DNA of 64,000 nt from Sphingomonas sp. RIT328 (GTDB taxonomy: Bacteria; Pseudomonadota; Alphaproteobacteria; Sphingomonadales; Sphingomonadaceae): contig NZ_JFYV01000009.1 in the NCBI RefSeq assembly GCF_000632225.1, positions 1 through 64,000 of the forward strand, read 5' to 3'. Below are positions 8,647-59,445 of this stretch, one piece after another; position 1 is the stretch's first letter; every line of letters starts with the position of its first letter. The translations under genes and the position numbers were made by a program. A model generated the notes under the pieces. It was not told the origin of the DNA and ran no database searches. It saw only the letters and a list, made by a program, of their open reading frames with translations.

Positions 8647-10275
8647 TCAGCCGACCCCGGTCGGTCCGTCGATGACGCGGCGGACCTTGATGGCGAGTTC
8701 GCTGCGCTTGTAGGGTTTCTGGATCAGGTCGAATTCGGCGCCGCGCGCGTCGACCCGCTCGATCGAGGATTCGGCATAACCGGTCGTCAGCAGCACGCAG
8801 ATCCTTGGCCGCCGGCGCTTGACCTCGCGCGCCAGCATCACGCCGTTCGTCCCGCCCGGCATGATCAGGTCGCTGAACAGCAGATCGATAGGACCGGCGC
8901 CATCGAGCAGTTCGAGCGCGGCATCGGCATTGTCGGCGCGCAGCACGGTATATCCGAAGTCGGTGAGCACCGCCTCGGCATAGTCGCCGACGTCGACCTG
9001 ATCCTCGACGACCAGCACCGTCTCATGTCCGCGCTTGTCGGCGAGCGGACGCGACGCCGGCGCGCCCTGCGGCTCCGCCGCCGCCGCCTCGCACGGGAAC
9101 AGCATCCGTACCGTCGTGCCGCGCCCCTCTTCGGACGTGATGCGGAGCAAGCCGCCCGACTGTTTCATGAAGCCGTAGACCATCGACAGGCCGAGCCCGG
9201 TGCCCTTGCCCTGATCCTTGGTGGTGAAGAACGGTTCGGTGACGCGGGCGAGGATGTCCGGCGACATGCCGATGCCCTGATCGGTGATGGTCAGCATGAC
9301 ATAGGTGCCGGGCGCGAGTTCGCCGAAGCCCTTGTCGCCGGCCTCGATCGAGCGGTTGCTCGCTTCGATCGTGATCGTGCCGCCATCGGGCATCGCGTCG
9401 CGCGCGTTGCGCAGGATGTTGATGACGGCGAGTTCGGCCTGCGTCGGATCGATCCGGGCGTTGCAGATATGCGGATCGCTGCGCACGGCGACGGTGACCG
9501 CGCCGCCGGCGGTGCGCTCGATCAGCGGCTGGAGATGGTCGAGCAGATCGCCGAGATTGACGACGCGGCCTTGCAGTTTCTGCCGGCGCGAGAAAGCGAG
9601 CAATTGCTGGGTCAGCGTCGCGCCGCGTTCGGCGGCCTGCAGCACCGCGCGCATCGAGCGGGCCGCCTTGCGGCGGTCGAACTCGCCGTCGCGTTCGAGA
9701 TTGGCGAGGATGATGTCGCCGAACCCCTGGATCACGGTAAGCAGATTGTTGAAATCATGCGCGACGCCGCCGGTGAGCTGGCCGACCGCCTCCATCGTCT
9801 GCGCCCGGCGCAGCCCTTCCTCGGCATCGCGGCGCCGCGTGACGTCGAGCTGCGAGGCGAAATGATAGACGACCCTGCCGTCGCAATCGAACACCGGCGA
9901 TACGAACAAAGCGTTCCAGAAGACGGCGCCGTTCTTCTTGTAATTGAGGATCTCGACGGAGGTTTCGCGCTGCTGGCTGATCGCGCGGCGCAGCTCGGCG
10001 ACGGTGTCCGGATCGGTCTCCGGCCCCTGGAGCAGCCGGCAGTTGCGGCCGATCAGTTCGTCGCGCGCATAACCGGTCATGGTGATGAAGGCGGGATTGG
10101 CGAAGACGATCGGATTGTCGTGCTGATTGGGATCGGTGACGATCATCGGCATCCGCGTCGTCGACACCGCGGCGAAGAAGATGCCGTTGCGGTCGTCCGC
10201 CATATCGTGATTGGTGACGCGTTGCAGATGCGGGGGCGGACCGCCCCGCGGCTTTTCCGGCGTTCCGTCGGCCAT
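8647..10275 (-). CDS. LOV-domain hybrid histidine kinase with C-terminal receiver (blue-light sensor)
   Basis: The 542-residue soluble protein has three modules. An N-terminal LOV/PAS domain (about 28-150) carries the flavin-adduct motif GRNCRLLQG with C79, the residue that bonds FMN under blue light. A dimerisation/H-box (about 160-225) has the phospho-acceptor H173 in AHDFNN, followed by an HATPase domain (about 260-390) with N box and G-rich motifs (DQGIGMS, KGTGLGLS). A C-terminal receiver domain (about 415-535) carries D469 in SDLIMP and a conserved lysine in QKPY. There is no membrane helix. LOV kinases of related bacteria act in general-stress or lifestyle control. An EcfG-like promoter (10333-10357) precedes the gene. 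No dedicated output regulator is adjacent. Confidence 0.9.
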   Translation of the reverse strand: MADGTPEKPRGGPPPHLQRVTNHDMADDRNGIFFAAVSTTRMPMIVTDPNQHDNPIVFANPAFITMTGYARDELIGRNCRLLQGPETDPDTVAELRRAISQQRETSVEILNYKKNGAVFWNALFVSPVFDCDGRVVYHFASQLDVTRRRDAEEGLRRAQTMEAVGQLTGGVAHDFNNLLTVIQGFGDIILANLERDGEFDRRKAARSMRAVLQAAERGATLTQQLLAFSRRQKLQGRVVNLGDLLDHLQPLIERTAGGAVTVAVRSDPHICNARIDPTQAELAVINILRNARDAMPDGGTITIEASNRSIEAGDKGFGELAPGTYVMLTITDQGIGMSPDILARVTEPFFTTKDQGKGTGLGLSMVYGFMKQSGGLLRITSEEGRGTTVRMLFPCEAAAAEPQGAPASRPLADKRGHETVLVVEDQVDVGDYAEAVLTDFGYTVLRADNADAALELLDGAGPIDLLFSDLIMPGGTNGVMLAREVKRRRPRICVLLTTGYAESSIERVDARGAEFDLIQKPYKRSELAIKVRRVIDGPTGVG

Positions 10276-10332
10276 GGGGATCCAAGCGCTAGAGTCAGGC
10301 CGGGCCTTATGACATTGCCGGGTCGATCGGAA

Positions 10333-10357
10333 AACCCATCGAGATCAACGATGTTCC
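10333..10357 (-). promoter_or_regulatory. EcfG-type (general stress sigma) promoter candidate for the LOV kinase
   Basis: On the minus strand GGAAC (10357-10353) is followed after 17 bp by GTT (10335-10333), about 58 bp before the kinase start. The alphaproteobacterial EcfG consensus is GGAAC-N16/17-cGTT. The match lies in the only intergenic space upstream of the gene. Promoter activity is not shown. Confidence 0.5.
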
Positions 10358-10376
10358 CGGCATAAGACGGTCGGGC

Positions 10377-11135
10377 TCAGAACGCCGGGTCGTCCTCGCC
10401 GGTCGTCGCGACATGGATGCCGCATTCCACCTTGTCCCAACCGCGCCAGCGGCCGGCGCGCGGGTCCTCGCCGGGCTTGACCTTGCTGGTGCACGGCGCG
10501 CAGCCGATCGACAGAAAGCCCTGCGCCTCCAGCGGATGACGCGGCAGGTCATGCTCCTCGAAATAGGCGTTGAGCTGATCCTTGTTCCAGTCGGCGAGCG
10601 GGTTGAGCTTCAACCGGCCCTCATCCTCCTCGAACCGCGGCAGGGCGGTGCGCGTCCCCGCCTGGAATCCCTTGCGTCCCGAAATCCACGCGTCGAACGG
10701 CGCCAGCGCGCGGCGCAGCGGTTCGACCTTGCGGATCTCGCAACAGCCGTCGGGATCGTAGGACCAGCGCATGCCGGTCGCATCGCGCAGCGCGAGCATG
10801 CGCGGATCGGGACGGAAGACGCGCAGGTCGGTGAGGCCGAGCCGCTCGGACAGTTCGTCCCGATAGGCCAAAGTCTCGCCGAACATCTTCTGCGTGTTGG
10901 TGAAGATTACCGGCACGTCCTTGTCGATGCTCGCCACCATATGCAGCAGCACCGCCGATTCGGCGCCGTAGGAGGAGACCGACGCGACCCGCCCGGCGAG
11001 CTCGCCGGTGAGCAGCTCGCGCAGCATCGCCGCGGCGGGCACGCCGGCGAAGCGGATCTGCATCGCCGCGGCATCGGCGGTGGTGAAGGGCGGCGCGACG
11101 TCGATCACGTCGGCCGCGCGCGCAGATTCAGCCAT
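10377..11135 (-). CDS. cysH: Adenylyl-/phosphoadenylyl-sulfate reductase
   Basis: The 252-residue enzyme reduces activated sulfate (APS or PAPS) to sulfite in cysteine synthesis. Four cysteines that bind a [4Fe-4S] cluster in the APS-reducing type are present: C131-C132 (GCCEIRK) and C212/C215 (GCAPC). The catalytic cysteine C238 lies in ECGIH near the C-terminus. These features favour APS as substrate. The start at 11135 (MAESAR) overlaps the upstream DUF934 gene by 8 bp. The frame is open further upstream, but that part lies inside DUF934. It is the last gene of the cobA-DUF2849-cysI-DUF934-cysH operon. Confidence 0.95.
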   Translation of the reverse strand: MAESARAADVIDVAPPFTTADAAAMQIRFAGVPAAAMLRELLTGELAGRVASVSSYGAESAVLLHMVASIDKDVPVIFTNTQKMFGETLAYRDELSERLGLTDLRVFRPDPRMLALRDATGMRWSYDPDGCCEIRKVEPLRRALAPFDAWISGRKGFQAGTRTALPRFEEDEGRLKLNPLADWNKDQLNAYFEEHDLPRHPLEAQGFLSIGCAPCTSKVKPGEDPRAGRWRGWDKVECGIHVATTGEDDPAF

Positions 11136-50465: not shown

Positions 50466-50590
50466 GACGCGTCTCCTTGTGCGGGGGTTTGCGGGAGAAC
50501 GAGCGCGCCGTGGGTTGGTTGCGCGGTAGGGCCGGCCCGGTCATGATCGGGCCGGCGGCAATCCCGCCGTCGTGATGGAAAAGCGCATGC

Positions 50591-59420: not shown

Positions 59421-59445
59421 GGAACGTCGGGCCGGGGTGGCGGTT
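59421..59445 (+). promoter_or_regulatory. EcfG-type promoter candidate for the PfpI/DJ-1 gene
   Basis: GGAAC (59421-59425) is followed after 17 bp by GTT (59443-59445), 27 bp before the start codon. This matches the alphaproteobacterial general-stress sigma consensus GGAAC-N16/17-cGTT except for the base before GTT. Confidence 0.5.

Follow-up and report, generated by a model that had tools for sequence, protein, structure and literature searches.

A LOV hybrid histidine kinase gene in Sphingomonas preceded by a conserved EcfG-type promoter

The gene for a LOV-HisKA-HATPase-receiver hybrid histidine kinase in Sphingomonas sp. RIT328 is preceded by an EcfG-type promoter that recurs before related genes, and on the strength of this pattern it is very likely under EcfG control. 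The gene was analysed within a stretch of 64,000 nucleotides (hereafter, the window), of which it occupies positions 8647–10275 on the minus strand. As an overall explanation, we hold it reasonably probable that EcfG would supply the LOV hybrid kinase to a light-responsive phosphorelay, which may in turn lead into the stress response; stress would then probably raise the light sensitivity of the cell.

Domain architecture of the kinase

The open reading frame runs from an ATG at 10275 to 8647, stop codon counted in, and encodes 542 amino acids. All of its features lie on the minus strand. The LOV domain (residues 33–146; 9838–10179) was delimited by a PAS_9 match at residues 47–146, by alignment with LOV structures and by invariant residues, and includes the adduct cysteine C79 (codon 10039–10041). 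It is followed by the Pfam-defined HisKA dimerisation domain (residues 165–232; 9580–9783), in which an HDFNN motif and the phospho-acceptor H173 (codon 9757–9759) are found, by a HATPase_c domain (residues 276–395; 9091–9450) and by a Response_reg receiver (residues 420–531; 8683–9018) with the phospho-acceptor D469 (codon 8869–8871). The Pfam score for HisKA is slightly below its cut-off (26.6 versus 26.9 bits), and the protein scores 792.7 bits against NCBIfam model NF010076 (PRK13557; cut-off 631) over residues 10–541, which places it in that family. In an alignment of 16 proteins C79, H173, D469 and K520 are invariant, as are the LOV residues N78, R80, L82, Q83, N111, N121 and Q142. We take N78, R80, Q83, N111, N121 and Q142 to be the residues that contact FMN in LOV domains; together with the adduct cysteine and a GxNCRFLQ-type motif they mark the protein as a putative LOV photoreceptor. 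Of 121 family genes, that of the window included, all have HDFNN, 120 have a GxNCRxxQ-type motif, 120 the receiver aspartate motif and 119 KPY. The reading frame, the Pfam matches and the alignment confirm what an initial annotation had proposed from C79, a phospho-acceptor histidine and a receiver aspartate, namely a LOV kinase and a receiver in one polypeptide.

The top structural match, 5idj ('Histidine kinase', presumably Caulobacter CckA), covers the kinase core. Most of the remaining matches are LOV domains, and that of the window kinase aligns to 6ph4, phototropin, aureochrome and others. CckA models are also next-best in NCBIfam, well below their cut-off. No match to HWE_HK or HisKA_2 was found in Pfam at E 0.001, and the score against NF052306 (192.5 bits, cut-off 450) leaves the protein outside the HWE/HisKA_2 kinases of the general stress response (hereafter, GSR) represented by LovK and LOVHK. 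By sequence the core is thus of the HisKA type and CckA-like, not HWE, a resemblance that suggests possible phosphotransfer to ChpT.

The residues of the LOV domain point to control of the kinase by light. In the predicted structure (mean pLDDT 71, pTM 0.37) the first domain is PAS-like, and a single helix, of low confidence, spans residues 146–193 and runs through H173. Between the D(V/I)T aspartate and the phospho-acceptor histidine, every protein read by pattern (120 of 121) has a spacing of 29, seven fewer than the 36 of the YF1-type structure 4gcz. Under the heptad rule, as given in the available text of PMC6798134, a linker in such register yields a light-repressed net kinase; by this analogy with YF1 the window kinase might, on a weak inference, be on in the dark and off in the light. 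According to the available text of PMC12148442, light activates the majority of LOV kinases, contrary to this predicted polarity.

The EcfG-type promoter and its conservation

The promoter, GGAACATCGTTGATCTCGATGGGTT, lies at 10357–10333 on the minus strand and consists of a -35 GGAAC (10353–10357), a 17-nt spacer and a -10 GTT (10333–10335). The initial annotation had recognized this GGAAC-N17-GTT element and set it 58 bp upstream of the gene; the element stands, and the -10 ends 57 nt before the ATG, leaving by its position a predicted leader at 10276–10332. For scoring, a matrix was built from the putative promoters of 25 S. melonis genes that depend on EcfG (Table 1 in the available text of PMC6599016; rows of at least 10, unstarred), on which the window promoter scores 15.9. 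With its 57 nt it also falls within the definition given there for the S. melonis EcfG regulon (GGAAC-N17-20-GTT, at most 100 bp from the start codon). The source genome has one nepR, adjoined by phyR, an ecfG-like gene (read from sequence) and a HisKA_2 kinase gene, and an EcfG-type site precedes nepR (score 14.0).

The motif count alone is within chance. GGAAC-N16-18-GTT occurs three times in the window versus 1.6 expected, a number equalled in 22 of 100 shuffles, and a narrower pattern that excludes the window site, GGAAC-N16-17-CGTT, gives 29 matches in the whole genome versus 47 for its reversed form. High-scoring EcfG-type sites are not rare, with eight of at least 13 in the 64-kb window and six in the 17-kb GSR stretch. 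A chance motif would fit these raw counts; it is contradicted by the position of the site and its conservation in relatives, which are far beyond chance. Neither a sigma-70-like promoter nor a terminator-like site was found in 10200–10450. The lack of a terminator-like site there, and three folds that are not clearly above shuffles (z 0.49, -0.90, -1.20), speak against the element being a misread terminator of cysH.

Besides the kinase's own, three of the eight window sites were assigned to genes. A GCAAC-type EcfG site at 50522–50498 precedes a pyridoxamine-oxidase-like (Pyrid_ox_like) gene that we take to encode general stress protein 26, and its letters are close to those of the S. melonis site for that protein. 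Between 59394 and 59445 two EcfG-type sites abut divergently, one by a topoisomerase IB gene (59419–59394) and one by a divergent DJ-1/PfpI gene (59421–59445); both are upstream only with starts inside the longest reading frames, which the Pfam domain positions permit. In S. melonis a topoisomerase IB gene and one named for general stress protein 26 are both EcfG-dependent (PMC6599016, available text), and the window sites near the Pyrid_ox_like and topoisomerase IB genes serve as positive controls for the matrix.

A search of the genus at E 1e-120 returned the kinase from 101 of 201 genomes. The comparison set comprises 121 distinct genes of at least 400 bits, including ten loci from a named scan counted before duplicate removal and excluding G082:C316. 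L175 and L251, which lack the anchor motif, were then dropped. A quick tree of the remaining 119 genes, with long branches, gave clades A1 (15 genes, among them that of the window and its second copy on contig C56 of the same genome), A2 (7), B (42) and C (50, three from outside Sphingomonas), with five others. At a threshold of 12, which 2.0% of the 5646 control stretches, each 225 nt long, attain, sites are present in 12/15 A1, 0/7 A2, 37/42 B, 12/50 C and 0/5 other genes, counts that come from related and non-independent sequences. All 12 sites in A1 score at least 14.9. When upstream regions are shuffled, on average 0.73 of the 15 A1 genes and 1.22 of the 42 B genes reach the threshold, with maxima of 3 and 4, comparisons that are not probabilities. 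Ten distinct A1 sites, selected for holding the motif, have a mean identity of 1.00 in both the -35 and the -10, whereas the spacer, at 0.28, is at the background level of the flanks (0.27/0.33). All 12 A1 sites have GTT as their -10. The initial annotation had placed the gene behind an EcfG-type promoter as a possible EcfG target, and this reading is upheld as likely because the promoter is conserved in two clades, A1 and B, and the genome holds nepR, phyR and an ecfG-like gene.

EcfG control is not universal within the kinase family. The genes below threshold are L035, L038 and L039 in A1, all seven of A2, 5/42 of B and 38/50 of C, and the best site of a Pseudoxanthomonas relative (L085) scores 9.9. 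One subclade of C comprises ten genes, eight of which have in common a GCAAC-/GAAAC-N-GCATT-type site 193–195 nt ahead of the anchor; in seven of these the score is at least 12. Upstream of the A2 genes L168–L174 a conserved GGAAC is followed by a TTT-type element instead of GTT, and a conserved GAACCG-type stretch lies beside the ATG. A leader stretch, GGCCGGCRCTTCGGRGCATGCC, directly follows the promoter in several A1 genes (for example, G000:C56:99538–99559) and is absent from the window copy; the source genome holds one mismatch-free match, before the C56 copy, and one elsewhere with three mismatches. No common fold was seen by eye in these A1 leaders.

The distance from promoter to start codon differs between the two clades: in A1 the -10 ends 52–66 nt before the ATG (12 sites), and in B each of the 37 sites has an in-frame ATG 8 or 9 nt past its GTT (for example, L045, L042, L043 and L193), and two of them have a further in-frame ATG at 2. 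Two of the five B genes below threshold, L211 and L201, have the same geometry with an altered -35. If EcfG transcription starts some 6–9 nt after GTT, the clade B kinase mRNAs are predicted to be leaderless, the transcript beginning at the start codon, and with their fixed geometry these genes would form a naturally occurring group of stress genes predicted to lack a leader. At clade B loci such as L042, L044 and L045 the kinase gene lies directly downstream of a reading frame with a C-terminal signature that we take to be PopZ-like; a crude pattern for this end gave 16 matches over the 121 loci.

Gene neighbourhood, proposed mechanism and alternatives

In 9 of the 15 A1 loci, including that of the C56 copy, a LOV-PAS-HWE kinase gene lies downstream on the same strand. 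The gap between the aligned ends is about 70–80 nt in four loci and about 190–250 nt in five, and a single-domain receiver was recognized after the LOV-PAS-HWE gene in three of the nine. The second kinase copy of the source genome (G000, contig C56, L266:4878–11373) is 80% identical to the window copy and belongs to a row of genes for a GAF-PAS hybrid kinase, the LOV hybrid kinase, a LOV-PAS-HWE kinase and a single-domain receiver. The LOV-PAS-HWE neighbour (L266:9435–10922) scores 81.5 bits for HWE_HK and 263.9 for NF052306, below the cut-off of 450, and aligns over 463 residues (32–494 of 496; 336 bits) to 6ph4, presumably Brucella LOV-HK (LOVHK). Another LOV-PAS-HWE kinase gene of the same genome, at L267:2265–5995, overlaps tail-to-tail with an opposite-strand gene for a GAF hybrid HisKA kinase. 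At the window locus there is no LOV-HWE neighbour. A search of 18 genomes at 1e-90 found homologues of the LOV-HWE kinase in 10; the eight without one are G014, G013, G035 and G003 of A1 and the four A2 genomes searched. Since the hybrid kinase occurs in genomes without a homologue at this level, the partner is not obligatory.

The proposed mechanism begins with stress, which would free EcfG from NepR. EcfG would then directly target the kinase gene, and the promoter at 10357–10333 would yield more of a soluble FMN-LOV photoreceptor kinase, making stressed cells more responsive to blue light. Blue light would form an adduct between C79 and FMN and twist the helix that joins the LOV and dimerisation domains, altering kinase activity at H173. 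Phosphate would pass from H173 to D469 of the protein's own receiver and on to a further partner, at the nine A1 loci probably the adjacent LovK/LOVHK-like LOV-PAS-HWE kinase and, where present, the single-domain receiver. The module may thereby modulate the GSR, or else adhesion or motility as an output coupled to it. A link of the hybrid kinase with the stress network is suggested because of the LOV-HWE neighbour; for the light-gated feedback loop of the initial annotation, in which the window kinase would act back on the stress response, this adjacency in 9/15 A1 loci is the evidence, and it is circumstantial, while the HisKA core counts against such a loop.

A serious rival accepts that EcfG drives the kinase gene and places the output in motility, adhesion or exopolysaccharide, with no path back into the GSR. 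The family extends beyond EcfG, with relatives of about 45–55% identity in Pseudoxanthomonas, Pseudomonas, Variovorax and Caballeronia, and in Xanthomonas and Pseudomonas motility, attachment and survival under stress are influenced by LOV kinases (available text of PMC4844311). The HisKA core and the eight of 18 genomes searched that lack a LOV-HWE partner also fit such an output, whereas the LovK/LOVHK-like kinase adjoining in 9/15 A1 loci argues against it, and we regard it as possible, though somewhat unlikely.

Control of the gene by EcfG itself faces two lesser challenges. The window copy follows cysI-cysH on the same strand, 101 nt after cysH, and with no terminator-like site in 10200–10450 it could be expressed by read-through past an inactive GGAAC element. 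However, the genus-mate G195 keeps both the cysI-cysH-kinase order and the promoter at the same place with a different spacer, and A1 relatives keep the promoter despite other upstream sequence, which makes read-through improbable. A genuine promoter that serves some ECF sigma factor other than EcfG, likewise with a GGAAC-type -35, would agree with the near-invariant AAC triplet reported in the -35 for ECF sigma factors generally (PMC7083833, available text), but is very improbable given the invariant GTT in A1, the similar site before nepR of the source genome, and the presence in clade B of both GGAAC and GCAAC, the two commonest -35 boxes of Sphingopyxis GSR promoters in that text.

Relation to known LOV kinases

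In the available text of PMC5898713, S. melonis lacking its seven known HWE/HisKA_2 kinases (pakA-G) still has an inducible general stress response, and a HisKA kinase has been suggested (available text of PMC6530869). An EcfG-controlled HisKA LOV kinase, often beside a LovK/LOVHK-like gene, would be a concrete candidate type for the kinase still active in that mutant. A broader and doubtful proposal is that in sphingomonads such a kinase belongs to a stress-gated module of two photoreceptors, exchanges phosphate with the adjacent LOV-PAS-HWE kinase and its single-domain receiver as a light input to the GSR, is a candidate for the kinase type remaining in the pakA-G mutant, and in clade B is made from an obligately leaderless stress mRNA with the start codon at the transcription start.

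The LOV hybrid kinases of Xanthomonas and P. syringae that have been studied presumably share the NF010076-type layout, and by score this type belongs to the same NF010076/PRK13557 family as the window kinase. It differs in its regulatory setting, EcfG being described as exclusive to alphaproteobacteria (available text of PMC3892343). The LOV domain of Brucella LOVHK (6ph4) is similar, and the best-matching stretch of the window protein is confined to that domain; moreover lovhk is without a sigma motif in the available text of PMC4438053, unlike the window gene. Caulobacter SkaH, a precedent for the suggested link with the LOV-HWE neighbour, is likewise a hybrid kinase that works with a LOV kinase, and it binds LovK; in the available text of PMC6530869 it is an HWE kinase with PAS-like sensor domains, and no conserved gene pair is described there.

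The closest precedent for the regulation is LovK-LovR of Caulobacter crescentus, where the genes are likewise under an EcfG-family factor (sigma-T) and a stress feedback has been proposed. Both lovK and lovR carry a sigma-T motif (available text of PMC4438053), and the proposed feedback is negative and controlled by sigma-T (available text of PMC5964349). LovK has a LOV-HWE layout, with the receiver as a separate protein (available text of PMC6530869), whereas the window protein joins LOV, HisKA and receiver in one chain; HWE is also the family of the LOV kinases known to act in the GSR of Caulobacter, Brucella and Erythrobacter (PMC4438053, available text). Among the matches listed, no title or opening part of an abstract in the open literature describes an EcfG target that is a LOV hybrid kinase. 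Caulobacter lovK-lovR is a known case of a LOV kinase under stress control, and what would be new here is a HisKA hybrid LOV kinase under EcfG.
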